Part shown: one piece after another, positions 39,428-62,534 of the stretch
How positions within the stretch are numbered: the first letter of the stretch is position 1
Layout of the letters: the number at the start of each line of letters is the position of its first letter
NCBI RefSeq assembly: GCF_024498295.1
Contig: NZ_CP101827.1
Location: 562,001-626,000 of the forward strand
Direction: 5' to 3'
Length of the DNA stretch: 64,000 nt
Source of the DNA: Thermocaproicibacter melissae
GTDB taxonomy: Bacteria; Bacillota; Clostridia; Oscillospirales; Acutalibacteraceae
The notes under the pieces: model-generated
The model's input: only the letters and a program-made list of their open reading frames with translations
What the model was told of the DNA's origin: nothing
Databases searched by the model: none
Translations under genes and position numbers: made by a program

Positions 39428-39454
39428 GAATCGGTGATATCATAGACTGAGGGA

Positions 39455-39499
39455 AATGTGCATATTTTGGTGCATAGAATGTGCATGATTGGTGCATAG
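39455..39499. repeat. Tandem direct repeats beside oriT
   Basis: Two units, 23 and 22 bases long, each AATGTGCAT, about five bases, GGTGCATAG. They give four TGCAT elements, plausible binding sites for the ribbon-helix-helix protein. Confidence 0.7.
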
Positions 39500-39514
39500 T
39501 TTTTGTCCCTCTTT

Positions 39515-40507
39515 TTAATCGACTATCACTTTCTCCGATGAACTAACAGCCGATTTTGGTGATGCAGAAGATGTTGAATCTAATGTAGATTTTGCAACAC
39601 CTGTGCCTGCGTCTTGATACTTGCCATTCTTTGTGTCGTTCCATTTTTGTTTGAGTTTTTGAATCTTCAGCTCATAATTTTTTATATCTGACTGGAATTG
39701 AGCAATGTTATTTTTAAGATTATTTATCTGTGTCTTTTTGGATTGAATGGTATCATTCGATTGCTTCACCTCATCCGCAGTTTGGTATTTCTGATTTTCA
39801 GTTAGTACAGAAATATCAGACGTCAACTGCTGAATGGATAGATTGGCCGAAGCAATTTTTTTGTTCGTCTGAGAGATATTCGCTTGCACTGCTGCAATCT
39901 CATTATCAATAGATTCCAACGAGTAGTACAATGTCGATTGCGATTTCAGGGAAGTGTTACGGACAACTTTTCGAGCATCACAAAGGAAGTTTGCACCCTG
40001 TTGATTGAATTCTTCCGTTGGACTGTTGTTGTCGATAATGAGGTCTGAATCTGTCTGAATTACATCGACGGTCTGTTCTTGCTGACTGTCAATCCACAAT
40101 GATACAACATTCCAATTCTGCGGGAGATTTTGGATTTGAATCACAAGATAACCATTGTGCTCATAGGCGACCGTGACATTCAAAGCTTTTGATTTGTTTA
40201 TATCGGTATGAGCTGTCGGTAAGAATTTTACGTTCTGGTAATCGTCTGAATTCGGATAAGTGAATGCAGCCTCCATGAAATGTGTGGAAGGGTTATACTG
40301 CCAGCTTTGCAGACACAAGCCAATACCTTCGGTTGTGCTGATAGTTGTTCCAATAGGAGTGTTTTGGATTGGAACATCACTCGGCAACCACATTTTACTT
40401 GTTAAACACACTGCCAGCAGGATGGTAGTAGTCGATAGAAAAATCCGATAAGTGAAATTGATATTTTCAATCATCCGCTTCTTCAGCCATTTAATTTTAG
40501 CGGTCAC
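39515..40507 (-). CDS. Membrane-anchored coiled-coil protein of the conjugation operon
   Basis: A protein of about 330 residues with one N-terminal membrane helix (YRIFLSTTTILLAVCLTS) and a long exported part. A coiled coil covers roughly residues 210-300 (VQANISQTNKKIASANLSIQ, KTQINNLKNNIAQFQSDIK), then a Ser-rich tail. The GTG at 40507 is preferred, with AAAGGTGG from the end of virB4 upstream. No family recognised; by position a T4SS channel or surface component. Confidence 0.65.
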   Translation of the reverse strand: MTAKIKWLKKRMIENINFTYRIFLSTTTILLAVCLTSKMWLPSDVPIQNTPIGTTISTTEGIGLCLQSWQYNPSTHFMEAAFTYPNSDDYQNVKFLPTAHTDINKSKALNVTVAYEHNGYLVIQIQNLPQNWNVVSLWIDSQQEQTVDVIQTDSDLIIDNNSPTEEFNQQGANFLCDARKVVRNTSLKSQSTLYYSLESIDNEIAAVQANISQTNKKIASANLSIQQLTSDISVLTENQKYQTADEVKQSNDTIQSKKTQINNLKNNIAQFQSDIKNYELKIQKLKQKWNDTKNGKYQDAGTGVAKSTLDSTSSASPKSAVSSSEKVIVD

Positions 40508-40508
40508 A

Positions 40509-42416: not shown

Positions 42417-42430
42417 TACAATCCTGCCTT

Positions 42431-43126
42431 TCACACTTTCACACGCTTATTCATGTTATTTAGTTGGAAAATAATGTTTTCTTTTTTTTCACGACTGATT
42501 GTCCGCACATTGAAATAGGGATCGCCTGATAGTATCCGTTTGATTTCCTCGTAGCGGCCCTTGTTTTCCGCAAAAACCATCAGAAAAGCCTGACGGTCTG
42601 TTGTATCCCTCTCCAGCGCTTGCAGCGTTTCAAGCTTCTCCAGCAACATTTCTGAGTAACGCTCAAGATCAGGTCTTTTCAGCATATAGCTGATATACTC
42701 TTGTTGCTGCTTCGTGTTGGTCGGGTAATTCATACTGATGATTTTAATATCATCCGAAAGGCGTTGGAGCAATCGAGCGTTACTGAGCACCATATTCTCG
42801 ATTTCTTCATCCGTGGCGTCATAATATGACCTTCCCTGTATTTGAAACAGATCGATAATCTTTTTTTCATCGGTTAGGAAATATCCTTCTGTCTCTAAAT
42901 AATCACGGATAGGGAACACGGAGAGTATCTTGTTCGTACTTGCTGGCTTTGCAGCGGCCTTCTTTTTTTCTGCTTTACGCGCAATCTTTGAATTCTTTCG
43001 TTGCTCCTTCTTTGCTTTCTTTTGCTCGGCCTTCAGTTTTTTTAGTTCTTCCCGGTTTTTTCGAGCTTTTTCCTCAAATTCCCGTTCCTGTTGCTTTAAT
43101 TTCAAGCGTTCTTCTTTATCAAGCAT
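42431..43126 (-). CDS. Probable split-off N-terminal part of VirB4
   Basis: A 231-residue protein. Residues 1-60 are an extremely charged helix (LKKLKAEQKKAKKEQRKNSK); the rest, beginning ILSVFPIRDYLETEGYFLTD, resembles the N-terminal domain of Gram-positive VirB4/PrgJ proteins. With the 635 residues of the next gene the sum is near a full VirB4 plus the helix. The genes are adjacent in order. Separation into two genes appears natural, because both have their own start and ribosome site. Confidence 0.55.
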   Translation of the reverse strand: MLDKEERLKLKQQEREFEEKARKNREELKKLKAEQKKAKKEQRKNSKIARKAEKKKAAAKPASTNKILSVFPIRDYLETEGYFLTDEKKIIDLFQIQGRSYYDATDEEIENMVLSNARLLQRLSDDIKIISMNYPTNTKQQQEYISYMLKRPDLERYSEMLLEKLETLQALERDTTDRQAFLMVFAENKGRYEEIKRILSGDPYFNVRTISREKKENIIFQLNNMNKRVKV

Positions 43127-43436
43127 CTTTTTTCACCTTCATATCTGGAACATGATTGATGGAATAATGCGTATATTGATCCTTGCTTATATACAAGATA
43201 ATTGCTTCCCAATTTCGTTTTTTGGGATTGCCTGGTGCGGGCTGGATTAGAAAAAGACTACTGACTGATGCGATAATCCAATAGGGAACAATCAGCCAGG
43301 AATGTACTAGTGTTTTGAACATTAGGAATGTTCCAAGTAATACGCACAGCGCCAAGAAGTCTTTCCACCATAGACGTATAGGTCGGTCAATCAGCTTCAT
43401 TTCTTCCTTCAGCTGCTTTGGTATTATATATGTCAT
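43119..43436 (-). CDS. VirB3-like small membrane protein
   Basis: A 105-residue protein with two membrane segments (FLALCVLLGTFLMFKTLV and WLIVPYWIIASVSSLFLI) and the C-terminal signature NPKKRNWEAIILYISKDQ, seen in T4SS proteins of the DUF5592/PrgI-like class placed before virB4. It overlaps both neighbours by a few bases. Confidence 0.75.
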   Translation of the reverse strand: MTYIIPKQLKEEMKLIDRPIRLWWKDFLALCVLLGTFLMFKTLVHSWLIVPYWIIASVSSLFLIQPAPGNPKKRNWEAIILYISKDQYTHYSINHVPDMKVKKDA

Positions 43437-45307
43437 TTTTGGACTCCTTTCCTATTCATTCGATTGATATCCTTTATTTCCGCCTTCGCGTCTCGTATAG
43501 CTTGTCTATGGCTTAACTGTGGATTTTCCTGCATTTTGTGATGCGCGAGCTGTTCGCGTAGAATTTTCTTATCGCCGTGAGCTAAACTGCTACCGTATGT
43601 CAAGTTATACATACGCCTTGCTGCACGTACAGCACTTGTATTCTGAACACCTCTTGTATATCGACTTTTTAGCGCGCTTCCGAGCGTTTCACGGTTCCAA
43701 GTATCCTGTTGACTTGTGTTTCCTTCCTGCTTTTCCTCTGTGGCAGCAGGAATAACGGGTGAATTATCTGGGATTGCGGTGCTGCCTGGTTGAGTCTGCT
43801 CAGCATTATCCATATCGTGCATAACGGGTACACCACCCCCGGTGCCAGAGCTGTCAGTCAGCTTGGTGCCTTGTGAAATATTTGTAGCTGCTCCAGATCC
43901 GCCTGTGGCCGCAGTCATGGCGGCTGTTAGGCGAGAACGGTTATCAAAAGCTCCTTGCCCAAGTCCGGCGACAATACCACTAGCTCCACCGACCGCACCA
44001 CCAATTTTTCCTACTGCTGTTTTTGCTGTGCCGATGATTCCTTTTGTTTTTAATGAATCCATCATACTCTTACCGCCCGCAAGTGCGATACCCCCGGCAA
44101 GCATACTGCCAGCTGCTTTCATTCCTATTAGTGTGCGGGTGGCGTTTTGCACACCGGCGTCAATACCGAAAATTTGTTCAAATAGATTCGGCCCGTCGAT
44201 AACCGACCAAGACAGCGCAATCATTAAAATCAACCGAAGAACAAAGTTGTTCGTATTTGCGTTAATATAGGCTGTACCTATGATGTATACCTGGAGCATG
44301 AAGAATACAGCAAACAAAGTAATGAATGAGGCCATTAACATTTGCAGACATTTTTTTACGCGCTGTGCGCTGTAAATATCAAGCAGTGCGAGTGCCTGCG
44401 TCATAGTCTGTTGAATGACAAGCTCATAGAGAATACGAGCAATTTTTACGCTGCTGAAAATCAGTGCAAAAGCTGTAATGAACAGTGTACTTATAATAGC
44501 AAACCAATCAATTGACCACCGGTAATAATATTCAGACAACGCAGGAATCCCAACAAACCCAACCTTGCCATCCCATAGGGCCGTTAATGTTTGATTACCA
44601 TTTTGATCAGTAGTCAATTTATTCTTCCATACATCCGGATGCTGCATTTTATCCGGATCATTAATTGTTTCAGTAGGATTAATCTTCGTAATCTGCGATA
44701 TATCATGTTTAGGTTGAGCATACACATTTTTGTATTTCAGTGCCTTGAATCCTGAATTGTCGTACAGTGTGTTATCTGTGATATTATCAACGAGAATTCG
44801 GTCAGAAATAGAAGTTTTAATTCCGTTTGTGCTGCCGAGAAAATTAATTGCATCATTTGTTAAACTGTATGCGGTGGAAAGAAGCGTTGGCACACTGACC
44901 ATAATCACCATGCCAATGATCAGATTTCCAACGATAGTCGATAGGTCGCGGGGCTTGATAATATACATGATGCCGATAGCCATAATCACAATGGCCAACA
45001 GTGCTATAATAAGAGGTCTGATTTTTTCATTTTGAAGGCTCGTGATGTCTGCTGACTGAAAGAAGCCTCCAAGTGTGGAATTAACATTGCTGATAACATC
45101 TTCTAGGCTATTTACCAGCCAATGAAGAAATGTCACAATGCCCCAACCGATTTGTCGGCCAACATCTCCTCCAACGCTGTGTGATTCGAATTGATATTGA
45201 TTTAGAACTTTCTTTGCGTCCACGGTATCTGCAAAAACAGATATCGGAGAGCATAATAAGATTGCTAATAATGAAACAAACGACAGGGCCGATTTCCTTA
45301 TCTTCAT
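43433..45307 (-). CDS. VirB6/TrbL-type channel protein
   Basis: A 624-residue polytopic membrane protein. It has a signal peptide (FVSLLAILLCSPISVFA), several membrane helices (about residues 90-175 and 270-400) and a glycine/alanine-rich, charged cytoplasmic tail (GGAVGGASGIVAGLGQGAFD) after about residue 420. This fits CD3337/EF1877-type VirB6 proteins. The ATG at 45307 is preferred, with AGAGGGAAC upstream; the longer frame overlaps virD4. Confidence 0.85.
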   Translation of the reverse strand: MKIRKSALSFVSLLAILLCSPISVFADTVDAKKVLNQYQFESHSVGGDVGRQIGWGIVTFLHWLVNSLEDVISNVNSTLGGFFQSADITSLQNEKIRPLIIALLAIVIMAIGIMYIIKPRDLSTIVGNLIIGMVIMVSVPTLLSTAYSLTNDAINFLGSTNGIKTSISDRILVDNITDNTLYDNSGFKALKYKNVYAQPKHDISQITKINPTETINDPDKMQHPDVWKNKLTTDQNGNQTLTALWDGKVGFVGIPALSEYYYRWSIDWFAIISTLFITAFALIFSSVKIARILYELVIQQTMTQALALLDIYSAQRVKKCLQMLMASFITLFAVFFMLQVYIIGTAYINANTNNFVLRLILMIALSWSVIDGPNLFEQIFGIDAGVQNATRTLIGMKAAGSMLAGGIALAGGKSMMDSLKTKGIIGTAKTAVGKIGGAVGGASGIVAGLGQGAFDNRSRLTAAMTAATGGSGAATNISQGTKLTDSSGTGGGVPVMHDMDNAEQTQPGSTAIPDNSPVIPAATEEKQEGNTSQQDTWNRETLGSALKSRYTRGVQNTSAVRAARRMYNLTYGSSLAHGDKKILREQLAHHKMQENPQLSHRQAIRDAKAEIKDINRMNRKGVQK

Positions 45308-45323
45308 AAAGATGTTCCCTCTT

Positions 45324-47462
45324 TCATTTCGCCTCTTTGAGTACCGTATAAATATCGTCAAAGGTGTTCTGAGAAATCTGCTGTTGGTCGAAAAGATCCT
45401 GAAGGAAACTATCAAACTGAGTCAATGTCATTGAGAAGTCGATTGTATTTTCATCGAAGTTTTCTGCTTTGAAGAAGCGTAAAATCAGATTTTGCTGTCC
45501 GTCCGTTAATCTCTTATTTAGCGGAAGATCGTCCGGAAAAGAGGTTTCCACAAGCAGCTCTTCTGATTTCGTGATGGGGGAGTACAGGATATCTTGTATT
45601 TCTATTCCTTTGTGCTTACAGGTGTAGGAGAGATTGAGTTTCTGAAATGATGCGTTTGGGAAATCATTGTTCAGATATTGATAGCTATATTTCAGAGCAG
45701 TTTCTCCATGATTGAAGATTGGATTTGGTGTTATGCTGCGTCCTTTTAGATCCGTCCGCTTTGTAACACGCACGACAACGCTTTCACCGGGCTTTAATTC
45801 CATTAATTCGTTGTGATCCAGAAGGGGTTTTGTATCGGAATGTTCAGAAATGTTTTTCTTAAGTGACAGGTTGTTTTTCGCATTCCTAGAATATGCAGTT
45901 ATTGTTTTGTTTCCAATTAAGGAAGAATACTGTTTTGCGGTATCGTCTTCGATTGTCAGCAGATATATCTGATTGCCGCAGGCACCGATAATTGATTTTC
46001 CGTCTTCTGAACCATATAGATGATATATCTGTGAATATGCCTGGATAATCAAATCGAAGCGTATATTGCGGCCAAGGCATACGTTCAGAATATGAGCCAT
46101 CTCCGGAATCGGTGTGATGTTGCCGAATTCATCCAGAAGAAATACGACTTCACGATAGCACTTGCCGCCAATCATGGCACATTTTTTGGAAAGGACATAA
46201 TAGAGTTGACTGATGAAAATCGTCGCTAAAAAATGATTGGACTTGTCGTAATCCGGAAGCACTAGAAAAACTGCGGTAGGTCTTTCCGTATCGAACCCGA
46301 TATTTTCAAGATTTATCGTGTTCATGGATATCATTCTTGCGACTTTCTCCATCGTAAACTTTATTAACTGCGCGAGAGTATTTGCAAAAATGTTGCCTTT
46401 TGTTTTCCCTGTTGCAAATGCAACAGAGGAATATTGTATTCGAGCTATATCATTAGAACCGCGACTGAGAAAGAAATTATCAAGGGAGCTACGCCCTTCC
46501 TTATCAGTTTCACCAAGATCGACCAAAAGCCGGGCAACAGAATACATGTTGACTTTACTGTACCATTTCTTCTTTTCTTCTATGTCATCGGTTTCATCTG
46601 CCTTTTTGCAGCAGTCAACCGTAACAGCAAGAATCAGTGCATTTGTCAGTGCAATGCTCCAGTTCTCCCAAGTCTTATCTTTGGCGTTGGGATCATGGAA
46701 CAGAATATAGGATAACGTATTTGCAAGTAACTGTGCTTCCGCGGTGTCCCCTTGTAAATAAGTGTGAAGGACGAGCTGAAGGGGATTATATGACAGGCCC
46801 ATGAAGTTCATTAGATCGAACACCTGCACGTTGTATCCGCGCTTTTGCAATGTTGCAATTGAGGCAGCAGTAAGTTCTCCTTTTGGGTCTGCTATAATCA
46901 TGCTGGCCTGCTTTTCTGCCCGACTGTAAATATCAATGGCCGGAATTACCTCTGCCTGAGTTTTGCCGCTTCGTGTCGTGCCTATGATTAGGTTATTGAC
47001 GGGGCTGTCGTCGATAAAGATTCTATCGTTATACCTAGATACCGGAAATCCACCTGTGCCGTCATACCTTTGTGCTTTTTCGGGAACGCTCCGAAATTCG
47101 CTTTTCAATTCCCGTAACGTCGCAAATCTACGACTTCCCTTTGTCTGATTGGCCGAAAGGGGAGTATAATTGGCCTTAATTCGATAAGCCAAACGAGCAG
47201 AATATGCGGCGGCAAATACAGCGCAGATTAGATACCACCACTTGAAACGCGGCCAATTGAAATGAAACGGATTTGGCATCGTAGTTATCATTTCCGGAGT
47301 GCCCCCGTGCTGTATGCTGCTGCGAAGACTGGTAAATAACTGACAGAACATTGTTCCAGCAAAGTTAAAGAAAAGCATCCATAATACAAAAACAGTCACA
47401 GCAAGTGCAATGACCACCGGAGTTCGGGATAATAATTTCTGCATTTTAATTCTGAAATCCAT
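45324..47462 (-). CDS. VirD4-type coupling protein
   Basis: A 712-residue hexameric ATPase that brings the relaxase-DNA complex to the channel. Two N-terminal membrane segments (VVIALAVTVFVLWMLFFNFA; WWYLICAVFAAAYSARLAY) precede Walker A in IIGTTRSGKTQAEVIPAI and Walker B in VVFLLDEFGNITPIP. The ATG at 47462 follows AAAGGCAG. It is separated from the upstream gene by a hairpin now split off by an IS1182 element. Confidence 0.93.
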   Translation of the reverse strand: MDFRIKMQKLLSRTPVVIALAVTVFVLWMLFFNFAGTMFCQLFTSLRSSIQHGGTPEMITTMPNPFHFNWPRFKWWYLICAVFAAAYSARLAYRIKANYTPLSANQTKGSRRFATLRELKSEFRSVPEKAQRYDGTGGFPVSRYNDRIFIDDSPVNNLIIGTTRSGKTQAEVIPAIDIYSRAEKQASMIIADPKGELTAASIATLQKRGYNVQVFDLMNFMGLSYNPLQLVLHTYLQGDTAEAQLLANTLSYILFHDPNAKDKTWENWSIALTNALILAVTVDCCKKADETDDIEEKKKWYSKVNMYSVARLLVDLGETDKEGRSSLDNFFLSRGSNDIARIQYSSVAFATGKTKGNIFANTLAQLIKFTMEKVARMISMNTINLENIGFDTERPTAVFLVLPDYDKSNHFLATIFISQLYYVLSKKCAMIGGKCYREVVFLLDEFGNITPIPEMAHILNVCLGRNIRFDLIIQAYSQIYHLYGSEDGKSIIGACGNQIYLLTIEDDTAKQYSSLIGNKTITAYSRNAKNNLSLKKNISEHSDTKPLLDHNELMELKPGESVVVRVTKRTDLKGRSITPNPIFNHGETALKYSYQYLNNDFPNASFQKLNLSYTCKHKGIEIQDILYSPITKSEELLVETSFPDDLPLNKRLTDGQQNLILRFFKAENFDENTIDFSMTLTQFDSFLQDLFDQQQISQNTFDDIYTVLKEAK

Positions 47463-47485
47463 ACGTTTTCTGCCTTTCATAAAAA

Positions 47486-52171: not shown

Positions 52172-52645
52172 TCATTTTGAGTTAAACTTGCTATAAAGTG
52201 TTACTGGAATGTCAAGTGCAGTTACCTCCTTTCCGAAAAGATATAACGGCTCATGTATGTTGAATTGCACAGTGGTTTTAATTTCATGTTCCGTGAAAGT
52301 CAGAGCAACATCAGAGATTTTGAACTTTTCTTTTCCATTTTGATACCCTGTCAAGCTATTTTGGGTTCCAAGTGCATCTTGCAGCCTTTTTTTGAATATG
52401 TCAGAATCAAGCGCAGGAGTGTAATCGGAACCATTTTTGAAGGATTCTATTTCTCGCCGTCCTTCGGTCACTGTGCAGGTATCTAGAACTCTTTGCGCGG
52501 TATTACGAAGATATGCGGTTCGTATTTTCAGTTCCGAATAAGTAAAAAGCGCGCAGGACAGCATCAGTAGCACAATAAAGAGGACGATGCCGAAAACCAT
52601 TGCACTTCCCTTTTTATCTCGGAGTCTATAAAGAAACGTTTTCAT
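52172..52645 (-). CDS. TadF/TadE-like minor pseudopilin
   Basis: A 157-residue protein with a short basic leader and a type IV prepilin-like N-terminus: RDKKGSAMVFGIVLFIVLLM, followed by an exported domain. Cleavage after the Gly would place Phe at position 5, where pilins have Glu, as for tip-type minor pilins. It lies four bases after the TadE gene and 15 before ssb. Confidence 0.72.
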   Translation of the reverse strand: MKTFLYRLRDKKGSAMVFGIVLFIVLLMLSCALFTYSELKIRTAYLRNTAQRVLDTCTVTEGRREIESFKNGSDYTPALDSDIFKKRLQDALGTQNSLTGYQNGKEKFKISDVALTFTEHEIKTTVQFNIHEPLYLFGKEVTALDIPVTLYSKFNSK

Positions 52646-52649
52646 CGTA

Positions 52650-53069
52650 TCACTTCCAGTACTGCTGTGAAGTAACGGATTTTGTGATAGACAGGGATAT
52701 CGGGATGGATATTTTCAGCGCAGATATTGATGTCTGCATCGAAAGCCGAAGCGTAATCGTGTCGCCATACTGTACTGTCCGTGCTTCCGAATCAACATAT
52801 TCAGCCGTATATTCAACATTCGGCGTTATACCTGTTGCAGAGACCAATTCATTGTAACGTGTGGATACTCGCTCTCCGGAACAACGGCCTTCGTTGCCGA
52901 CCGTAACTGCAAGCTCATTTCCAAAGTCATTCAACGTATTGTAGGCGTTCATGGCTTTCATACCAGCCGAAATCATAACGAATAACGCAAGCAGCGTAAG
53001 CATAGCAATGACCGCACTGACATACTGATCCACACCGCCCCTCTTATCTTTCAAAAGTTTATGTATCAC
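52650..53069 (-). CDS. TadE-like minor pseudopilin
   Basis: A 139-residue protein. A GTG start overlaps the tadC stop (GTGA), with AGGGGGAAG upstream. The N-terminus KRGGVDQYVSAVIAMLTLLA fits a prepilin leader and helix but without Glu at position 5. The remaining domain is exported. It forms a pair with the next gene, as in Tad loci. Confidence 0.7.
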   Translation of the reverse strand: MIHKLLKDKRGGVDQYVSAVIAMLTLLALFVMISAGMKAMNAYNTLNDFGNELAVTVGNEGRCSGERVSTRYNELVSATGITPNVEYTAEYVDSEARTVQYGDTITLRLSMQTSISALKISIPISLSITKSVTSQQYWK

Positions 53070-53932
53070 AGACTTCCCCCTATCTGAGACGCCGATGAAT
53101 ACACCGCAAATCCAAGGATAATGAATACGGTTATCGTAGCGCATAAAAAGAGCATCAGTGACATCATGTTTAGCTTAGGTTCTTTCTTTAGCGCCTCTTG
53201 TTTTATTCGTTCTTTCCAGGCATCGGCCATTTTGTACCCCAAATTATCAAAGTAAGCCTTCATGTCGTTCCCACGAATTTCTGATTGCAGACCACGCACT
53301 AGCTCACTAAGCATAGAAGAATTAATGCGTGTCTCCAGATTGTGGAGAGCCTGTTCCTGGTTGCCTGTCCTCATGTCAGATACGGTAATGGCTAGTTCTT
53401 CCGTGAGAGGACTGTTGTAATTTGCTTTGTAGGAGTCAATTAGTTCCAGAACATTCCGTTCGCTTTTGAGTTCGCTGGCCATATAGTCCACGAATCGCGG
53501 AAGTTCTTTTTCAATCTCTCTCCGTCGATTGTCGCATTGACGATTGGCAATGTTGTATTTATGGATATACAAGTAGATTGAAAATGCGAGGGGAATAACC
53601 GAGAGAAGGGGATTAATGATATAAACCGGTATTGCAAGCAGGAGTACGGTGGCAGACGGAATAATGGCCGCCGCCACATATTCCTTTGGAGTTTCCTTCA
53701 TGCCCGCGGCGGTGAGTGCTCTTTGAATTTCTGTTTCCTTATATCTGTTGATTGGAACATATTGAGCAAGCCATTTCACCATACCGCTGAAAATACCGGA
53801 AGATTTCTTTTTAGTTGTGTGCTTGTATGCGAGACTTGCTTTCCACGGGGGTGTTTTCAAAGCGATCGCTGTGATGCAGTACAGCATTGCAAACAAGAAA
53901 AAAGCCAGCAGCGCAAGCCAGATGTATTTCAT
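53066..53932 (-). CDS. tadC: TadC-type pilus platform protein
   Basis: A 288-residue inner membrane protein of the GspF/T2SSF family. It has an N-terminal helix (YIWLALLAFFLFAMLYCITA), a central helix pair, a cytoplasmic four-helix domain (ELPRFVDYMASELKSERNVL) and a C-terminal helix (MLFLCATITVFIILGFAVY). It follows TadB by 12 bases. Confidence 0.82.
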   Translation of the reverse strand: MKYIWLALLAFFLFAMLYCITAIALKTPPWKASLAYKHTTKKKSSGIFSGMVKWLAQYVPINRYKETEIQRALTAAGMKETPKEYVAAAIIPSATVLLLAIPVYIINPLLSVIPLAFSIYLYIHKYNIANRQCDNRRREIEKELPRFVDYMASELKSERNVLELIDSYKANYNSPLTEELAITVSDMRTGNQEQALHNLETRINSSMLSELVRGLQSEIRGNDMKAYFDNLGYKMADAWKERIKQEALKKEPKLNMMSLMLFLCATITVFIILGFAVYSSASQIGGSL

Positions 53933-53944: not shown

Positions 53945-54853
53945 CTAGAGATCGTATTTTATATTGTGAGTTTCAAGAAACGCAATAATCGCCGTTATGG
54001 CTATCAGCAAACCATTGACGGCGACCAATATTTGCGTAAGCGTTGTCGGAAGTGTAATCAGCAGGCTGTCCGGGACAACTTTCAGACCTAAATATAGGAC
54101 ACCGATTGATGCTGCTGCAAGTTCCCAATAGGTTCGCTGAGAACGGTATAGGATAGTATTCAAATCATTCGTAACAACCTTAATATTTGTAAGTTTACTC
54201 ACACAAGAACGTAGTCCTTGCTTCAGATTTCGGTTGCCATTGCAGCGCTTTAATTCGTCGCACCATTCGTAAAATACGGAGTTGTTGATTTTTGTTTTCA
54301 TTTCTTCAATGGCCGCTTCGATATTCGGATCAACATACTTAACCCTCAAAAGAAATTCCGTGAAAACCTGACGGATTGGGGGCTGTATGTTGTCGATGTT
54401 TTCTTCCACAGCCTGAAGAATATTCTCTGTTCGTTCATACGATACGGAGATTACGGATAGTGCAGTTTCCAGTTCGTCAAGCAGCAGCCGTTGATACTTT
54501 AGATACTGGAACCGCAGATAGACGAACGGAACGGCAGCTAACCCGAAAGCGAGCACCGGAGCGAGATAATAGTTTCCTGATACTGCGCCGAGGAGAAGAC
54601 CACCAATAAAAAGAAGAAGCGCCGCCAGAAGCAGCATATAGAATTTTCCCCGCTGACCTGTAGCGGAAAGCATCGTTTTTATTCTGGTGACAGCACCCAT
54701 AAGCCAACTTGTCTTGTGGGTTGCCTGACGTTTCAGTGACGTTTTTCTGTTACGGTTATGAAATAAATCATGAACATCCTGAATGGAAATCCCAAACAAG
54801 AGCTGAATACAGAAAAAAATGGCGATACACGCCATTAGTAAAAAAATCCACAT
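53945..54853 (-). CDS. tadB: TadB-type pilus platform protein
   Basis: A 302-residue inner membrane protein of the T2SSF family. It has an N-terminal helix (IFLLMACIAIFFCIQLLFGI), two central helices, a cytoplasmic domain (LDELETALSVISVSYERTEN) and a C-terminal helix pair. The TCGGACA palindrome lies between the tadA stop and its ribosome site (GAAAGGAAAA). Confidence 0.82.
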   Translation of the reverse strand: MWIFLLMACIAIFFCIQLLFGISIQDVHDLFHNRNRKTSLKRQATHKTSWLMGAVTRIKTMLSATGQRGKFYMLLLAALLLFIGGLLLGAVSGNYYLAPVLAFGLAAVPFVYLRFQYLKYQRLLLDELETALSVISVSYERTENILQAVEENIDNIQPPIRQVFTEFLLRVKYVDPNIEAAIEEMKTKINNSVFYEWCDELKRCNGNRNLKQGLRSCVSKLTNIKVVTNDLNTILYRSQRTYWELAAASIGVLYLGLKVVPDSLLITLPTTLTQILVAVNGLLIAITAIIAFLETHNIKYDL

Positions 54854-54887: not shown

Positions 54888-56216
54888 TTACTTTTGGATT
54901 TCCTCCATTTCTTCCCGTGTGATTCCGTACATCTTCATTCTTTCAATGAGAGATTTCGAGATACTGTTGACTTGTATATGCTTTCCTTTGATTCGTACAC
55001 CGGAAGACGTTTGCTCGTTTGCCTCAATCTGATATTCCCATAATGTGCGATATTCTGCTTTATCGTTCTCCACGACGCATTCCGAAATATTCATAATTCG
55101 CCGTTTGTTATCTTCCAGCTTATGAAGATGTACCACAAGAGGAAATGCCTGTCTTGCCTGCATGATAGCTGTGTGATAATCAGTTGGGTACTTTTTTCGA
55201 CAAAGACCAGCAACACGCTCATGTCCCTGCTGAGGGCTTCCTGCGTGTGTGGTTGATATGACGACATTTCCGGCAAGACTGCCTTCCTGCGCCGCGTATG
55301 CTTCCGTGTTACGCATTTCTGCGACACTGAGAATATCCGGATTAAGGCGTAGGGCCTTTTCTACCAGCTTTTCCTGTGTGATGTTCTGTTCTTCATATTT
55401 TGCGTTTTCACGTGTTAACAGATGCACTACATTGTTTTTGACAACGCCTTTTTTATCTCTCTTGATTAGGTAGATTTCCCTCGCGCCCTGTTCGATTGTA
55501 ATGATCTGCATATCGTCGGGCATTTCAGAGAGAAGATAGGTCTGGAAGGTTGTTTTACCGGTATTAACCTTTCCGATAATTAGAATTGAAACGCCCCTGC
55601 GAAGAGCAATCTTCAAAAACTGCAATTCCTTTCTTGATGCAAAGTCTCCGGATAGATAATCCTGTTCTCGGAACACACGCTTACTTAGTTTTCGAATATA
55701 GCAGGCGACTCCGACATCTGGATCGACAAGTGGGGTTTGGAGAGCAGTAATGCGTATATTATTGTCAATGCTCGCCTCGGCCATCGGCACGGCGTTATCG
55801 ATTGTCTGATTGGACTTCTGAAGCAATCGCTTCACGATATCGATCGCGTGTTGTGGGGAATTGAATCCGTCAATTTTGATGGATTCGCCGGTGATGAATT
55901 TTACTCGGATATCATTCCACGAATTGATGGATATTCCTTCCACAAACACGTCTTCCAACGGATCAGTTAACACCGAATAGCGCTGAAGGTCATTGTATAC
56001 CTTTTCTGCAAGTTCCTCTGACGAATATCCGGTAAGCTGCATTTTATGGTCAGAGAGCGATTTCTTTATGTATGGCAGCATAAGTTCTTTTTTGTTTACT
56101 TGGTTATCATCATTCTGATTAATTTTCCAAAAGATTTCGTTTTGCTCTTTTTGGATTGTTGCTAGAATTTCCGGGTATTTCGGATCGGTTCCACGGCGCT
56201 GATAGCTGCGTTTCAT
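54888..56216 (-). CDS. tadA: TadA/CpaF secretion ATPase
   Basis: A 442-residue hexameric ATPase for Flp pilus assembly. Walker A is in ILIIGKVNTGKTTFQTYLL, the Walker B-like region is LRLNPDILSVAEMRNTEAYA, and VVISTTHAGSPQQGHERVAG is the His box. The N-terminal part has RYSVLTDPLEDVFVEGISIN, typical of CpaF. The start overlaps the TadZ stop (ATGA). Confidence 0.9.
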   Translation of the reverse strand: MKRSYQRRGTDPKYPEILATIQKEQNEIFWKINQNDDNQVNKKELMLPYIKKSLSDHKMQLTGYSSEELAEKVYNDLQRYSVLTDPLEDVFVEGISINSWNDIRVKFITGESIKIDGFNSPQHAIDIVKRLLQKSNQTIDNAVPMAEASIDNNIRITALQTPLVDPDVGVACYIRKLSKRVFREQDYLSGDFASRKELQFLKIALRRGVSILIIGKVNTGKTTFQTYLLSEMPDDMQIITIEQGAREIYLIKRDKKGVVKNNVVHLLTRENAKYEEQNITQEKLVEKALRLNPDILSVAEMRNTEAYAAQEGSLAGNVVISTTHAGSPQQGHERVAGLCRKKYPTDYHTAIMQARQAFPLVVHLHKLEDNKRRIMNISECVVENDKAEYRTLWEYQIEANEQTSSGVRIKGKHIQVNSISKSLIERMKMYGITREEMEEIQK

Positions 56217-56896
56217 AACAGTTCACCTACAATTCGATACAGAGTTTTGCGATATTTGCGTGGAGGGATGATATCGGTAATACAGATTCCATTGTAGATT
56301 CCGGATAGGCCCCGACAATAGGGAAGCACAGTTACCGGGGAATCGTAGGTACTAAGCACATCCGCAAGAGCGTTATTCGGGTTGTTGACAAAAAGCACTT
56401 GCAATGCGCAACCGTGGTTGGGATGATTCTGCCGGTAGTAATAACCCTTGACATCAGCTGTGGCTATACTAATTTGTTTGGAGCATTTTGATAATGCAAA
56501 TTTGTCAATCTTGTTCTGATGGGTGGAAGTATCGATTAGGATAATATCGGCAATTATACTTAGCTGTTGAAACAGTGATTCGAGATTGATTTTCGCAATC
56601 TCCGGATAGGTCAGTGCGGTTTCTCCGTCAGCATAACTGAGAAGCATGAGGTTTTTATTAATAGTGTGTGCGTTGTTAAAGATGTTTGCTTCGGCAATAG
56701 TTGCGAGGGAGAGAAGGCGGCCAAGTGAACGACCATCGTTATCCTTTCTATCAGGAAAAAGCATTTTGAAGGCGGGTTGATGACTGTCTGTTGAAACGAG
56801 GAATACCCGTTTACCCTGCTTGGATAAAATCTGAGCCAAATAAAAAGAAAACACCGTTTTCCCAGAATTACCGGTTACTGCTATCAGCTGCTCCAT
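56213..56896 (-). CDS. TadZ-like ParA/MinD-family protein
   Basis: A 227-residue P-loop protein; Walker A is AVTGNSGKTVFSFYLAQIL, a shortened ParA loop, and DIILIDTSTHQNKIDKFAL is the switch region. In Tad loci TadZ places the pilus machine at a site in the cell. It overlaps the CpaB gene by 29 bases. Confidence 0.78.
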   Translation of the reverse strand: MEQLIAVTGNSGKTVFSFYLAQILSKQGKRVFLVSTDSHQPAFKMLFPDRKDNDGRSLGRLLSLATIAEANIFNNAHTINKNLMLLSYADGETALTYPEIAKINLESLFQQLSIIADIILIDTSTHQNKIDKFALSKCSKQISIATADVKGYYYRQNHPNHGCALQVLFVNNPNNALADVLSTYDSPVTVLPYCRGLSGIYNGICITDIIPPRKYRKTLYRIVGELL

Positions 56897-57593
56897 CGTT
56901 TAGTACCTCGCTTTGCTTATCTAGAAATTTTTGTGCTGTTTTACTGTCACCACGATAGACCAGGGCAAAATGTATCTCACCGGAATCTTCATATTCGGTA
57001 AGTTGTACGGCCTGAGAAGGTGTAACTAACAAGGTAACAGTTTTTAGCGTATCTTTTTCTTCTTCTGTATCTGTTTGATCCCTATCAACACCTTTACTGT
57101 CCGTGACTGTCAAAACCTCTACATAAGTGAGCTCCGGTGGAATTGCAGCGCCGGATTTGTCGCTCTTTATGACAGAAACAATGTCGCCGCTCCGTAGCTT
57201 GTCTGATAAAGCATCGGAGAAATCTTTTATTGTCACAGAATACGCAACACGAGTCCCGTCGAGCATAGAAAGCCGGTCGGGCGCGGTTGAAATGCTGTCT
57301 GTGATTTTGTTTGAAAGGATAAGATCGCCTTTCGCAAAGTCGGCATCAGCATATTTACCAACCACATCATCTTTCGATGTAATAATGCCAGGGGATAGGT
57401 TATATGCTCCGACCGTCACATTTTGAACCATGTTATCCGCAATTTTCTCACCCTTTGAAACAGCGCAAGTAAATTTTACAACTTGCACCGTTTTTGCCTC
57501 GCTCTTAATTGTCGTTGTGTATGCGAATACACATAGAACAGCGAAAACACCGCAGATAAGAGCGAGAAATATCCTGTTTTTCACTATCTTCAT
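56868..57593 (-). CDS. CpaB/RcpC-like SAF-domain protein
   Basis: A 241-residue exported protein with an N-terminal membrane anchor (RIFLALICGVFAVLCVFAY) and an SAF domain (FTCAVSKGEKIADNMVQNVT, DFAKGDLILSNKITDS). The CpaB family forms part of Flp pilus machines. The ATG at 57593 is preferred since AAAGGAG lies upstream; the longer frame covers the peptidase gene. Confidence 0.82.
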   Translation of the reverse strand: MKIVKNRIFLALICGVFAVLCVFAYTTTIKSEAKTVQVVKFTCAVSKGEKIADNMVQNVTVGAYNLSPGIITSKDDVVGKYADADFAKGDLILSNKITDSISTAPDRLSMLDGTRVAYSVTIKDFSDALSDKLRSGDIVSVIKSDKSGAAIPPELTYVEVLTVTDSKGVDRDQTDTEEEKDTLKTVTLLVTPSQAVQLTEYEDSGEIHFALVYRGDSKTAQKFLDKQSEVLNDGAADSSNR

Positions 57594-57604
57594 AAAAATC
57601 TCCT

Positions 57605-58006
57605 TTATTGCAGCAGTATTGTTGCGATGGAAGCGCATCCTGCCGACAAAAACGGTACAAGAGGAATTTTGTCCCATTGAACGAAGCGTCGGATGATTGG
57701 AACTGCAATGATACATAAAAATGAGCCAAGCGCAAGCCCAACCAGGCCATTTGTACCTTTCAGAATCCATCCGCATAGTGCCCCAAACTTTACGTCACCG
57801 CCGCCGAAATCATTACGGATAGCGGCGGCGATAAGTAGAGGAATTGCTGTCAGAATGAGGCCGCTAACTGATGAAATGTCAACCTGAATCAACCCGGTCA
57901 GCAGGAGCAAAACATATACCCGTAGTGGTATGATTCTCGTCATTATATCCAATACTGACGCATATCCAATCACCACTAAAAAGCAAATAAGCTTGATAAT
58001 TTCCAT
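57605..58006 (-). CDS. Prepilin peptidase, TadV/CpaA type
   Basis: A 133-residue integral membrane aspartic peptidase. The two catalytic aspartates are in YASVLDIMTRIIPLRV and NDFGGGDVKFGALCGW (GxGD family). It is short and lacks the methylase domain, as usual for Flp systems. Its start codon overlaps the pilin stop. Confidence 0.85.
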   Translation of the reverse strand: MEIIKLICFLVVIGYASVLDIMTRIIPLRVYVLLLLTGLIQVDISSVSGLILTAIPLLIAAAIRNDFGGGDVKFGALCGWILKGTNGLVGLALGSFLCIIAVPIIRRFVQWDKIPLVPFLSAGCASIATILLQ

Positions 58007-58275
58007 CAGCCTTCAAAACTGAAAATGTTCTCAGTTGCCGTTTTTAGTCCTTTTGCAACCGTATTCTGGAAAAAGTCTTCCATTCCAGGCAGAAAAACGA
58101 CTGCTGCGACAACCAGGACGACAGCCATCAGGGCAATTACTGCGACAAGCTCAGAATTGCCTTTGTTGTCTTTGAACATTCGGCGCATGGAAGTAATCTT
58201 TTTGAAGTTATGAGGCGATTTTCCTTGCGCATTGGGGTACAGGGCCGAAATTTTCTTTTTTACTTCATTGAACAT
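58006..58275 (-). CDS. Flp-type pilin precursor with a long leader
   Basis: An 89-residue protein. Residues 1-39 are a basic leader ending MFKDNKG, followed by NSELVAVIALMAVVLVVAAV, a prepilin-type helix. Glu lies at position 3 after the likely cleavage point, where Flp pilins have it at 5. The rest is very short (GMEDFFQNTVAKGLKTATEN). It is followed at once by a prepilin peptidase, which supports the role. AAAGGAG precedes the ATG. Confidence 0.75.
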   Translation of the reverse strand: MFNEVKKKISALYPNAQGKSPHNFKKITSMRRMFKDNKGNSELVAVIALMAVVLVVAAVVFLPGMEDFFQNTVAKGLKTATENIFSFEG

Positions 58276-58439: not shown

Positions 58440-60920
58440 TCATGGCAAATGACTGATGTACCAGTCATCATAAATGTCACCGCCGATTACAATGGGCTTC
58501 AAAGTGCTTTGCAGGCTTATCATCCCGGCAGGCGTCCAGCAATCATATAAGAAGGTTTTTATGGTGTAATTTCCATCCGGATACCATAGGGGAGTGTAGT
58601 GAATACGCCGCCCGTCGTGTTCTCCGGTTATAGTAATGGAATATGGATTCTCTACGAATTCCAACTTGTTTGCAGCAGTGAGTTGCAGAGTTCTATATTT
58701 GCCATCGGCAAGTTCATACCCGAATTCGGGAAAATAAGCGTTGCCGCTCTGAGGTAGCACATACGCGCTTGAATCCGGCAGAATCGTGTCGTCATATTGT
58801 GATGCTTTTGTATTCACCATAAGGCTCAGTCCATAGCCGGATTTCATGTGCCAAATACCACCGGATTGAAATCTGGAGAAAGCGTTGACGTCAGGAACAA
58901 CCTGTTGATCGGCAACAAGCGTTAGGCCAAATGTTTTTTTACTCCAGGTTCCATTTTCATACACCCACTGCTGCCATACAGCATTCGGGGTTACATTGGT
59001 TGCATAATTGCCGGTGGGAATATCCGCTTTCTCGTCCGGTCTGGAGAAGTAATTTGGAGTGTTTTCAAATTTTGTGTTTGGCGTTTGTGAGTTGTCTGGT
59101 GCAGATACAGTAATATCTTGCTTATCAGTGTTGTTATTCGTGTTTGATTCCACGACACCGGATGGAGTATCTATTGTGCAGACAAATGAAACTTTTGAAG
59201 CACCCTCTGGAATTTTAACCTTAAACCAAGTCAGGTTTTCATTGCTTCGTGGGACAACTACTTTGTTTTGGTGAGTGGTAATGCCCTTCGTGACTCCATT
59301 TATCACGCAGCTTGCCGTAAAGTGTACGGTCAGGGGACGGTCAGAAGTATGTTCAGCATAGCTGTTGTTATGGATAAGATAACTTGCAATTATCTCCGTT
59401 CCGCTTCGATATGTTGCATTCGGCTCAACAAAAGTTGGATACACGTCGGATAAAGGATGATCTTCAAGCGTAAGGGGAATTACTTGCTCACTTTGCGATA
59501 CCGAGAATGAATGTTTACTGCTGTCAAGAGCAAAGCCGGTTGGGGCTTGTACTTCTTCAATGTAGTAGTTACCGTATGTAAGGTAGGGGCTATAAATCCA
59601 TTGGCCCGCATCTGAAGTAACATCTGCCACACGGGTTCCATCAGACTTAAATATCCGGTAAACAGCACCGGAAAGGTATCCGCCAGAATAGCTATCCTTC
59701 TTTACAAACTTCACGCGGCCTTTTTTGAGCGTGTTATTAAAATTAACCGTCGTCGTTTGCCCCGGTCGTACTGACACCGCTTGAGAAGATAATTGATTAT
59801 ACCTGGCTGGAATGCTGCTTTCTTGTACCGTATATGTTCCAACCGGAAGACCGGTTATAGTAAGCAGCCCTGAGGCATTTGTAGTGCCCTGCCTGGTTAT
59901 CCCATTGCCGGAGACGGTAAACGCGATGCCGGACACAATTCCGTCTTCTGATTGTTTTCGAATTGTCAAATTTCCAGTCGATTCTGTTTGAAGACGCATA
60001 TAAGCTGGAACTGGGTCGGGTGGATTGCTTCCCGTCACAATATTTTGAGCAGATGACGCAGACCATACTGTGATTACACCAACCTTGGATTGCTTTGGTA
60101 TTTTTTTAGTACAGCTAACATTTATCGGAGCTGTTTCATTGATAATGTTCTTTGTTGAAATTTTAAGTGTTTTATTATCCAATTTGGTGAAAGTAACTCC
60201 GTTAGCAGAAAAGGTTGTTTGTTCAAGTGAAGCAATAGAGTTTGTGTCATGCAATGTCGTCTCATATGCACCTGTGTTGGCGTTATATTTCAGAGTATAG
60301 GTAGGCGCAGTCCGTAATACTGACGAAGTGAACGATGGAATTACAGTAGCTTGTATTAGAGAATTATTTAGTGCTTCATAAACATTCATATAGCTGCTTT
60401 GATACGCACTTGGGGCTGACAGATTATTAATCAGTGAACGGTTCGAACACACGCCGGTATAGGGGTTGCGATAACCAAGGACATACTCCCATACGACAAT
60501 TTGAGTTATCGCAAAGCCTAAATATGGGTCACTAAAAAGACTACTATTGTTAGGATAGCCATAAAGAAGTGCTAGATTTATTCCGTACTGTTTATCTCGT
60601 CCTAGGCGGTTCCAATATGTTGCATCTCCCGTGCTATATGTTGTTCCATAAGCAATAGATGCCCCCGGTTCCACACAGTATGCTGGTGTATTTAATGATT
60701 TGAACCATAACCTCGTAATATCTTCGCCAGCGCGGAAAGTCATAATTTTTCCGTTGACTGGATTTGTAAAGGTGTAATTATTCTTCCACTTGAACCCATC
60801 GTAATACATAGATATTGTTCGGCTTTTCGCCGACACATTTATATGAAAAAAGCTTGTCTGAAGAGTAAGAAGCATACACAACAGACAGGCTACCGATTTA
60901 AGAAACATCCTTTTTTTCAC
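58440..60920 (-). CDS. Secreted thioester-domain adhesin with SpaA/Cna-B repeats
   Basis: An 826-residue surface protein. Signal peptide (ACLLCMLLTLQTSFFHINVSA), then a thioester domain: Cys82 in AYCVEPGASIAYG and Gln140 in AITQIVVWEYVLG are the expected cross-linking pair that can bind host or cell surface amines covalently. Two SpaA/Cna-B type domains follow (NLTIRKQSEDGIVSGIAFTV; GRVKFVKKDSYSGGYLSGAV), then a CARDB-like domain and an aromatic-rich end (YPDGNYTIKTFLYDCWTPAG). There is no LPxTG motif or C-terminal membrane anchor, so wall sorting by sortase is not expected. GTG start after AAGGAG. It precedes the Tad pilus operon. Confidence 0.82.
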   Translation of the reverse strand: MKKRMFLKSVACLLCMLLTLQTSFFHINVSAKSRTISMYYDGFKWKNNYTFTNPVNGKIMTFRAGEDITRLWFKSLNTPAYCVEPGASIAYGTTYSTGDATYWNRLGRDKQYGINLALLYGYPNNSSLFSDPYLGFAITQIVVWEYVLGYRNPYTGVCSNRSLINNLSAPSAYQSSYMNVYEALNNSLIQATVIPSFTSSVLRTAPTYTLKYNANTGAYETTLHDTNSIASLEQTTFSANGVTFTKLDNKTLKISTKNIINETAPINVSCTKKIPKQSKVGVITVWSASSAQNIVTGSNPPDPVPAYMRLQTESTGNLTIRKQSEDGIVSGIAFTVSGNGITRQGTTNASGLLTITGLPVGTYTVQESSIPARYNQLSSQAVSVRPGQTTTVNFNNTLKKGRVKFVKKDSYSGGYLSGAVYRIFKSDGTRVADVTSDAGQWIYSPYLTYGNYYIEEVQAPTGFALDSSKHSFSVSQSEQVIPLTLEDHPLSDVYPTFVEPNATYRSGTEIIASYLIHNNSYAEHTSDRPLTVHFTASCVINGVTKGITTHQNKVVVPRSNENLTWFKVKIPEGASKVSFVCTIDTPSGVVESNTNNNTDKQDITVSAPDNSQTPNTKFENTPNYFSRPDEKADIPTGNYATNVTPNAVWQQWVYENGTWSKKTFGLTLVADQQVVPDVNAFSRFQSGGIWHMKSGYGLSLMVNTKASQYDDTILPDSSAYVLPQSGNAYFPEFGYELADGKYRTLQLTAANKLEFVENPYSITITGEHDGRRIHYTPLWYPDGNYTIKTFLYDCWTPAGMISLQSTLKPIVIGGDIYDDWYISHLP

Positions 60921-60973: not shown

Positions 60974-61867
60974 TTATTTATATAATTCATATACCCAATA
61001 ATCATTTACTTTATTTGATTTCTTTACAAACACTGGATTGAAATCTGCTCCTTCAGCTTTTCTGTTTTTAATCAAAGAATCAATTGCTTGTTTTGCCTTT
61101 TGAATAAAATCTGATTCGTCAAGCGTATCCTGTAAGATATCAATAGGAAACTCATAACCGCAGTCTTCTATCTGAAGATTCGGATTATAGTACAATCCTT
61201 TTGATTCACCATAGGAAATCAACTCGTTTCGTATTGCATTTATATCATAAGGTGCTTCTACTTTATGAGTATCACTTGCAGATACGACTCGGTCATTTAA
61301 GTCAGTTGAGTCATCTGAATTTATGATTTTACCTATACTACTGGTAGCTTTTGTGCTTGATTGTGTTGATGCAGCGCTGTTGTTTTTCTTTGTAGTCGAT
61401 TTTGTAGAAGTAGTGCTGCTGGATTTTGTTGTACTCGATTTTGTAGAATTGGCGCTGTTGTCTTTCTTAGTTCTCGCAGTTGTCGAAGCAGCACTGTTGT
61501 TTACACTCACTTTTGCGCTAGATGCTCTGCTGTTTGTCGTGAAATTAGAAGTTGCAACCGATTTAGTGCCGCTGGAAACGGATGTCGTTCTGGAACTGCT
61601 TATTGCCATTCCGGGTGAATATTCAGAGACGGCGGAAATGGAAAAGCTGCTCGAATTGTGATCGTTTGTTATCTTTACAGCTTCTGATTCGTTTGTGTTT
61701 ACTGTACCTAAACTGTTTAAGCCGCTGGAACCAGCATCAGATAATTCTGTCGAAGTGCTCATTGGAACTGCCGACACACGCGTTAATGCTGCAATTCCGT
61801 GACCAATTGTCACGCTGATTATAGCAACTGCGAGAATATAGCTCGCTTTTTTCATACTTTTCATCAT
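60974..61867 (-). CDS. Secreted Ser/Thr-rich protein
   Basis: A 297-residue exported protein. It has an N-terminal signal or anchor (ASYILAVAIISVTIGHGIAA), a low-complexity Ser/Thr/Lys linker over about residues 85-180 (STKSSTTKSSSTTSTKSTTK), and a compact C-terminal domain (YDINAIRNELISYGESKGLY; VNDYWVYELYK). Function unknown; the spacer-like linker suggests display through the cell wall. It has its own promoter and a terminator. Confidence 0.7.
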   Translation of the reverse strand: MMKSMKKASYILAVAIISVTIGHGIAALTRVSAVPMSTSTELSDAGSSGLNSLGTVNTNESEAVKITNDHNSSSFSISAVSEYSPGMAISSSRTTSVSSGTKSVATSNFTTNSRASSAKVSVNNSAASTTARTKKDNSANSTKSSTTKSSSTTSTKSTTKKNNSAASTQSSTKATSSIGKIINSDDSTDLNDRVVSASDTHKVEAPYDINAIRNELISYGESKGLYYNPNLQIEDCGYEFPIDILQDTLDESDFIQKAKQAIDSLIKNRKAEGADFNPVFVKKSNKVNDYWVYELYK

Positions 61868-61919: not shown

Positions 61920-62534
61920 TTATTCTGATTTCACGGTTAAACTGATGATTGCCTGTATTTTATTGTCAAACTGAGAGGATACAGTGATATGACAGCTACC
62001 GGTGCTGATTCCGGTAACGATTCCGGTATTATCAACCAATGCGATCTCTGGATTGTCTGATTCCCAACTGACAGCCTTGTCAACAGCATCCTCCGGAAGA
62101 ACTCTTATGTTGATTCCAATGCTTTCTCCTACGGATAATGTAACCTCGTGGGGCGCTTCTATGGATTGTACCCGGTTGACGGATTGTTCGGAAGTGCCGG
62201 AAGAAGCTGATACCTCGTTATGATCGATAGGGGATGAGGTCGAGGGTGAATACGACTTTTGATTTTGGGCTGATGAAGAAGTCAGCAGAATTGCTTGTGC
62301 ATTTTTACTTGTGCTGTCCGTACTGATGCTGCTTGTCCCTTGTGTCCGGTGTATTTCTTTAACCGTCACACTCACGAGGCTAGATACTGTACTGGATGTT
62401 TGACTTGTTGATGATATTGCGCTTGTTGGTTGCCTCAACGTGAAAATAATAGCCATCACAGATAAAAGAAAAACAGCAACGATTACCGCTGCTGTCTTTT
62501 TATGAGCGATTATCTGATTCTTAACACCAAGCAT
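61920..62534 (-). CDS. Membrane-anchored protein with a BIG2-type domain
   Basis: A 204-residue protein with an N-terminal membrane anchor (AAVIVAVFLLSVMAIIFTL), a Ser/Thr-rich linker, and a C-terminal bacterial Ig-like (BIG2) domain: LSVGESIGINIRVLPEDAVD, SWESDNPEIALVDNTGIVTG. The ATG at 62534 lies inside the end of the SpoVG-like gene (14-base overlap). Probably a surface protein related to adhesion; the family role is structural. Confidence 0.75.
   Translation of the reverse strand: MLGVKNQIIAHKKTAAVIVAVFLLSVMAIIFTLRQPTSAISSTSQTSSTVSSLVSVTVKEIHRTQGTSSISTDSTSKNAQAILLTSSSAQNQKSYSPSTSSPIDHNEVSASSGTSEQSVNRVQSIEAPHEVTLSVGESIGINIRVLPEDAVDKAVSWESDNPEIALVDNTGIVTGISTGSCHITVSSQFDNKIQAIISLTVKSE

Follow-up and report, generated by a model that had tools for sequence, protein, structure and literature searches.

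A thioester-domain adhesin without a known surface anchor, and its conserved C-terminal module, beside Tad pilus and conjugation genes of Thermocaproicibacter melissae

Introduction

How does a surface adhesin that carries no familiar anchor stay on the cell that makes it? The question is raised by a gene in a stretch of 64,000 nucleotides of the Thermocaproicibacter melissae genome (NZ_CP101827.1, positions 562,001 to 626,000; hereafter the window), in which an adhesin with a thioester domain (TED) is encoded next to genes for a Tad/Flp pilus and for conjugation. The attachment of Gram-positive conjugative elements to recipient cells is poorly known, and these elements were described as forming no sex pili in work on the plasmid pLS20 (PMC8014075).

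A mating adhesin with a TED and without an anchor is an already known kind of protein. TIEpLS20 (Tie, gene 34), encoded on the Bacillus subtilis plasmid pLS20, belongs to the class II TED adhesins and lacks an LPxTG motif. Donor cells need it to mate efficiently in liquid; it loses its function when the Cys is changed and is sortase-independent, its mode of attachment being left as a question by its authors (PMC8092201). In later work, LiCl extracted Tie from the wall, and the protein was seen in foci at the cell surface (PMC11730352); extraction by LiCl is what would be expected of noncovalent attachment. In class II TEDs, the Gln of the TQxxPhiW motif is a helper that is dispensable for the bond, and the Gln that forms the bond sits in a PhiQzetaPhiPhi motif toward the end of the domain (PMC6194298).

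Results

Domain layout and leader of the adhesin

The longest form of the adhesin reading frame starts at a TTG codon and encodes 834 residues. The GTG codon at 60920, which has a good ribosome site, gives 826 residues, and this form agrees with the numbering of Cys82 and Gln140 in an earlier note on this DNA. From the N- to the C-terminus, the protein consists of a Sec signal peptide, a thioester domain, two SpaA domains and a C-terminal module of about 340 residues (Table 1). The claim of the earlier note that a thioester domain is followed by two SpaA domains was borne out by Pfam, with 40.4 bits for TED (cut-off 22) and 97.2 bits for SpaA in two stretches. The TED match is not due to chance because its score exceeds the curated cut-off and regions similar to the adhesin occur in 102 of 300 genomes of the family. 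In SpaA domain 1, Lys322, Glu367 and Asn396 occupy invariant columns of a profile of 18 relatives (profile A4) and would fit a candidate isopeptide triad. SpaA domain 2 has an Asp where Asn is usual.

The leader is an ordinary Sec signal (VKKRMFLKSVACLLCMLLTLQTSFFHINVSA). Inspection of the N-terminal sequence revealed neither a lipobox nor a type IV pilin leader, and the combination of a class III prepilin leader with a pilin helix was absent. At the C-terminus, sequence and hydrophobicity gave no LPxTG motif with a membrane segment and positive tail, as had been claimed before; the highest 19-residue Kyte-Doolittle mean within the last 100 residues was 0.92. The accompanying claim that no sortase gene lies nearby is right as far as the element goes; two such genes are present elsewhere on the chromosome, at a distance of about 340 kb.

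Table 1. Positions of the adhesin, its parts and the neighbouring genes within the window
Feature	Positions	Strand	Basis and remarks
TED adhesin gene	58440..60920	-	ORF list, Pfam TED and SpaA; 826 aa, GTG start at 60920
Sec signal peptide, residues 1-31, ending HINVSA	60828..60920	-	Sequence
Class II type thioester domain, residues about 32-310	59991..60827	-	Pfam TED; profile match to 6fwv, 6fx6
Cys82 in AYCVEPG, predicted thioester Cys	60675..60677	-	Aligned with SaTIE-TED Cys296; conserved in relatives
Gln140 of TQxxPhiW motif, not bond partner	60501..60503	-	Motif definition in PMC6194298
Gln292 in SAQNIVTG, predicted thioester Gln	60045..60047	-	Aligned with SaTIE-TED Gln467
SpaA domain 1, residues 311-400	59721..59990	-	Pfam SpaA
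SpaA domain 2, residues 401-488	59457..59720	-	Pfam SpaA, sequence
C-terminal module, residues 489-826	58443..59456	-	Alignments; AlphaFold2 model
CARDB-fold half of module (predicted)	59097..59465	-	Structural match to 3idu; Pfam CARDB in relatives
Second beta-rich half of module, reaching C-terminus (predicted)	58443..58985	-	Invariant columns; AlphaFold2 model
Stalk-like partner	60974..61867	-	N-terminal hydrophobic segment, S/T-rich linker, about 90-aa C-terminal domain
Second stalk-like protein	61920..62534	-	Membrane anchor, S/T-rich linker, Big_2 (Pfam)
Small pilin-like protein	58006..58275	-	Weak DUF6133 match
A24 prepilin peptidase	57605..58006	-	Pfam
CpaB/RcpC	56868..57776	-	Profile match; real start probably downstream of listed ATG
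TadA/CpaF ATPase	54888..56216	-	Pfam T2SSE; one copy in genome
TadB-like membrane protein	53945..54853	-	Position; homologues in same place in other loci
TadC-like membrane protein	53066..53932	-	Pfam T2SSF
DUF4320 and second TadE-like minor pilin candidate	52172..53144	-	Pfam DUF4320; conserved position
Conjugation genes	36311..47480	-	M23/lysozyme hydrolase, MobP2 relaxase, VirB4, pLS20_p028 family, CD1115-family VirD4; NCBIfam and Pfam

The predicted thioester pair

The earlier note had paired Cys82 with Gln140, and only the Cys withstood comparison with known class II TEDs. Profile A4 matches the solved class II TED structures 6fwv and 6fx6. In the profile alignment with SaTIE-TED (6fx6), whose solved thioester joins Cys296 and Gln467, Cys296 aligns with Cys82 and Gln467 with Gln292. 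Cys82 lies in YCVE, an instance of the [YFL]C-hydrophobic-hydrophilic motif that bears the bond-forming Cys, and is conserved in nearly all relatives as well as in both close copies. Gln140, however, belongs to TQIVVW (within AITQIVVWEY) and thereby to the helper motif TQxxPhiW, so that the motif definition and the structure-based alignment together rule out Cys82-Gln140 as the bond pair. Gln292 is invariant among the 18 relatives and follows a long insert near the end of the TED, 210 residues past Cys82, a spacing that fits a class II TED. We predict that the thioester would form between Cys82 and Gln292. Viral contigs contained no TED relatives that could be used for the structure alignment.

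The C-terminal module

Pfam and NCBIfam assign nothing to the last 340 or so residues of the adhesin. What had been described as an aromatic-rich end is instead, by alignment and structural model, a conserved module of two domains. Structure prediction, which the earlier note had proposed as a check for the last 200 residues, returned a confident fold for the module (AlphaFold2, 65-row alignment, mean pLDDT 91.4, pTM 0.88). The first half of the predicted model has a CARDB fold, superimposing on 3idu with a VIA-align Z of 10.1 and an rmsd of 2.4 A over 110 residues, and Pfam CARDB is matched in 3 of 28 module relatives. Apart from these three members, the module had no match in Pfam, PHROGs or the PDB sequences. 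The second half is predicted to be beta-rich and carries the motifs MKSGYG, FPEF, HYTPLWYPDGNY, DCWTPAGM and YDDW in invariant columns; a search with the whole module gave no clear structural match for it. Matches to transglutaminase, complement and arrestin structures were dismissed, as they had a large rmsd or covered the Ig-like half only. The module is conserved to its final residues, as seen in an alignment of the ends of 19 relatives. Across the 300 family genomes, the module part and the TED-SpaA part find matches separately, the former in proteins of 500-1500 residues.

The module family and its loci

A scan of genome contigs identified 448 loci encoding relatives. We took the best 80 of the 448 for the locus study, 69 of which had enough upstream sequence to be analysed. 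Core Tad genes (tadA, B, C or cpaB) were present in 63 of these 69 loci. The gene directly upstream of the module gene was stalk-like, that is, it encoded one N-terminal hydrophobic segment and a linker rich in Ser, Thr and Pro, in 55/69 loci as opposed to 9/821 background ORFs (1.1%). Both in the loci and in plasmid examples, module genes usually follow minor pilin genes directly, and the family is found mainly within conjugative elements, beside transfer and Tad genes. Of 394 genomes of the order, 28 gave a match to the module in a profile search. None of the family members checked has an LPxTG motif with a membrane tail.

Members of the family occur in a small and a large type, and the usual N-terminal domains of the two are related to each other (hhalign probability 95%, E 2.8e-8). 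We considered whether this usual domain could be a decayed or ancestral form of a TED and rejected the idea, as the hhalign probability was only 0.1-0.3%. The TED-SpaA part was seen in front of the module in three copies only: that of the window, another one of the T. melissae genome and one of Oscillospiraceae bacterium HV4-5-B5C. Since the usual domain is not akin to the TED and TED-SpaA was seen in these three copies alone, TED-SpaA represents the replacement of an exchangeable end. Within a large family of surface proteins encoded by such elements, the module stays constant and the N-terminus is exchangeable, TED-SpaA being a rare replacement there. The literature searched, largely without subscription journals, contained neither this module family nor its constant pairing with stalk and Tad genes nor the TED-SpaA swap.

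The two close copies of the adhesin

Both close copies are intact. The second copy in the genome is 87% identical to the adhesin and the copy in HV4-5-B5C, which belongs to the same genus, is 68% identical. Between the two copies of the T. melissae genome, dN/dS is about 0.18. Their SpaA domain 2 (59457-59720 in the window; second copy in contig locus L036) is identical at the DNA level, with dN and dS of 0 over 88 codons, whereas the flanking parts reach a dS of about 0.7. An identical domain between diverged flanks suggests recombination between the two copies.

Each of the two other TED copies is part of an island some 10 kb long (L036:5641-17978 and L038:4113-14147) with a serine recombinase and with replication-type and MobC-like genes. 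No Tad or type IV secretion genes were found near either island, and both may be mobilised by other elements. The TED gene and its stalk gene are retained as a pair in both islands without Tad genes. HV4-5-B5C has no relative of the TadA of the window, only other T2SSE-family ATPases. In a further genome (G106, L146:1694-6583), another TED protein, lacking the C-terminal module, is encoded beside a lipoprotein stalk that contains the same domain of about 90 residues as the stalk in the window.

Stalk-like partners upstream of the adhesin

Two stalk-like genes lie in a row upstream of the adhesin gene in the window, and the nearer one is that which also accompanies the TED gene in both close copies. 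The hydrophobic segment of the nearer protein has a mean of 2.08 and could be a cleaved signal peptide; that of the second has a mean of 2.89 at residue 15. Judged by these segments, only the second of the two stalks looks clearly anchored. The domain of about 90 residues at the end of the nearer stalk had been considered as a common element protein, an idea that was abandoned as it occurs in only 3 of 150 genomes.

At 28 of 31 small-type loci, the partner protein has a shared peptide at its C-terminal end, compared with 2 of 1,512 other ORFs; as the pattern was drawn up from the examples seen, these figures characterise the family and do not amount to independent evidence. On the Clostridioides difficile plasmid pCd5_2 and the Clostridioides plasmid pESS17301a, the adhesin is preceded by two successive partners, of which the first kind carries a membrane segment and the other CWB2 wall-binding repeats (PF04122, 1.8e-44). 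Both partners, differently anchored as they are, end in nearly the same peptide, and docking is the simplest single function for an end shared in this way. The stalks of the window lack the shared terminal peptide, the nearer one ending in its different domain of about 90 residues, and the C-termini of the partners differ between small and large adhesin types. Docking on the window stalk is therefore proposed by analogy.

The element and its likeness to pLS20

The linkage to pilus and conjugation genes that the earlier note had pointed out was confirmed, as both Flp/Tad and conjugation genes are present in the window. Going by their family assignments, the transfer genes of the element are of the pLS20 type, with a MobP2 relaxase, a CD1115-family VirD4, a pLS20_p028 family protein and VirB4. 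A gene for an IS1182-family transposase (47537-48958) lies between the VirD4 gene and the primase-like gene of the element.

pLS20 itself carries the MobP2 relaxase, CD1115-family VirD4 and p028 families. The TIEpLS20 gene directly precedes genes for a TadA-like ATPase, two membrane proteins and a small pilin-like protein, and a Ser-rich stalk-like gene lies upstream of it. Within this Tad-like set (L152:9839-13334), the gene that is named virB11 in the pLS20 papers carries a tadA annotation. The window shares the features that characterise the TIEpLS20 arrangement: a TED adhesin without a known anchor in a conjugative element, with Tad-like genes adjoining. Relatives of the TIEpLS20 C-terminus were found on plasmids of Bacillus, Listeria, Enterococcus and Paraclostridium. 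In thirteen of the neighbourhoods inspected, a full pLS20-type adhesin gene precedes an annotated TadA/CpaF-type ATPase gene; in a Lactococcus stretch with a pLS20-type gene, no such ATPase gene is annotated. On pHT beta (L153:6307-9936) and at three further loci (L166-L168), the pLS20-type C-terminus is joined to other N-termini, annotated as SpaA or isopeptide-forming. The two Enterococcus faecium relatives with this C-terminus that were checked showed no TED Cys motif in their first 160 residues. Two plasmid TED matches (H1 and H5) were discarded as pLS20 adhesins, H5 ending in LPNTS and a membrane tail and a class D sortase gene lying beside both.

We compared the module with the C-terminus of TIEpLS20 by hhalign. 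Local scores were 28.1 and 29.6, above the shuffle maxima of 20.8 and 23.0 and a reversed control of 16.5, at an HH probability of only 6-9%. The global score was 18.5 with the first set, against a shuffle maximum of 9.5; it dropped to background level once the set was enlarged (2.3), and the C-half alone gave a score at that level too (3.0), which we counted against a link. Shared motifs appear in the same order in both proteins. As a module profile search of the whole pLS20 record gave nothing at E 10, it is the profile-profile comparison alone that makes the connection. A link between the module and the TIEpLS20 C-terminus seems likely from these comparisons.

Discussion

The conserved module and the stalk genes directly upstream offer a concrete candidate for how the adhesin is retained on the surface. 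We consider it an even call that the protein serves a pLS20-type integrative conjugative element as a mating adhesin, independent of sortase and kept in place noncovalently by the module, probably on the stalk. The adhesin would be exported by Sec, and its class II thioester between Cys82 and Gln292 would be held outward on the two SpaA domains and bond covalently to an amine on the target surface, most likely that of a recipient cell. The module, with its CARDB fold and second beta domain, would keep the adhesin on the donor noncovalently, most likely by docking on the membrane-anchored S/T-rich stalk protein or proteins encoded directly upstream. TED-SpaA would have taken over the place of the usual N-terminal domain on this constant module.

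The strongest competitor concerns the site of docking. The module could instead dock on the minor pilins (DUF4320, TadE-like), so that the adhesin would sit on the Tad/Flp pilus or at its very tip, similarly to PilY1 or to variable Tad tips. Such a display is favoured by the adjacency of module and Tad genes, observed at 63 of 69 loci as well as on the example plasmids, mostly with the module gene just after those for minor pilins; this linkage fits it at least as well as docking on a stalk. A variable N-terminus atop a constant C-terminus would also suit a pilus tip; Myxococcus is known to have Tad pili with exchangeable tips (PMC12075869), and in TP114 mating specificity is determined by adhesins of a type IV pilus (PMC9045228). 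However, two of the three TED-bearing copies reside in islands with the stalk gene and without Tad genes, and HV4-5-B5C has only T2SSE-family ATPases other than relatives of the window TadA, which argues for the stalk. The adhesin also has no pilin leader, and pilus display leaves the wall- or membrane-anchored partners unexplained. We regard pilus display as somewhat unlikely, and the adhesin could be attached to stalk and pilus at once.

Other alternatives differ in the target or in retention itself. The adhesin might be cargo that binds host glycoproteins or mucus and aids gut colonisation, its linkage to conjugation being incidental. Class I TEDs such as that of SfbI do bind host fibrinogen covalently (PMC4450167), and copies of the gene also occur in small islands without transfer genes. 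Yet the module family is found largely within conjugative elements, where transfer and Tad genes are its neighbours, and TIEpLS20, the nearest analogue whose function has been tested, acts in mating. The genes linked to the adhesin in the element speak for bacterium-to-bacterium contact more than for attachment to mucus, and we deem the role of a host adhesin improbable. It is harder still to credit that the protein is released to act as a soluble cross-linker or aggregation factor. The lack of a known anchor would agree with release, but the constant module and the partner genes directly upstream make retention likelier, and Tie of pLS20 was located in the wall fraction and in surface foci (PMC11730352).

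Returning to a stalk-held mating adhesin, we note that TIEpLS20 provides a direct published precedent for a covalent adhesin tied to conjugation (PMC8092201); the interpretation offered in the earlier note is partly supported. Both proteins have a class II TED without LPxTG motif or lipobox, are encoded in a conjugative element with Tad-like genes, and have a Ser-rich stalk-like gene upstream. They differ in the middle part, which is of another type in TIEpLS20 (a close relative is annotated as MucBP-containing) and SpaA in the window protein, and the C-terminus of TIEpLS20 is only weakly similar to the module. Tentatively, and with somewhat less than an even chance of being right, we extend the proposal to a two-part sortase-independent display in Gram-positive conjugative elements, in which envelope-anchored stalks would offer a docking site at their C-terminus. 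Adhesins that differ in their exchangeable N-termini would dock there via their constant C-terminal module, next to a Tad pilus. TIEpLS20 would then be a distant branch. If true, this display would answer the published question of how TIEpLS20 is retained. The module and its partner genes offer a specific candidate for recipient attachment, and the module marks a large unannotated family, with 448 loci in one scan. Our results also suggest that conjugation systems of the pLS20 type regularly include Tad-like pilus genes. In the literature that we searched, largely without subscription journals, no paper linked Tad-like pilus genes, the module and its partners to pLS20-type conjugation.

The arrangement shares individual features with several other systems. 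BaTIE, SaTIE and EfmTIE86 likewise have a class II TED followed by isopeptide-type domains, with Cys and Gln positions that align with those of the window protein (PMC6194298), but they are sortase-anchored (PMC8092201), whereas the window protein has the module instead. The PilV adhesins of TP114 are also linked to a type IV pilus and have an exchangeable part that sets mating specificity (PMC9045228); they are Gram-negative minor pilins with a shufflon-varied C-terminus, in contrast to the window protein, which is not a pilin and varies at its N-terminus. The Tad Tip complexes of Myxococcus similarly expose variable surface domains for contact with other bacteria (PMC12075869), though they are built of minor pilins and not of proteins with an ordinary Sec signal. 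PrgB of pCF10 is a mating adhesin of a Gram-positive conjugative element as well, but it is LPxTG-anchored and has a DNA-binding lectin-like domain and no TED (PMC8092201).
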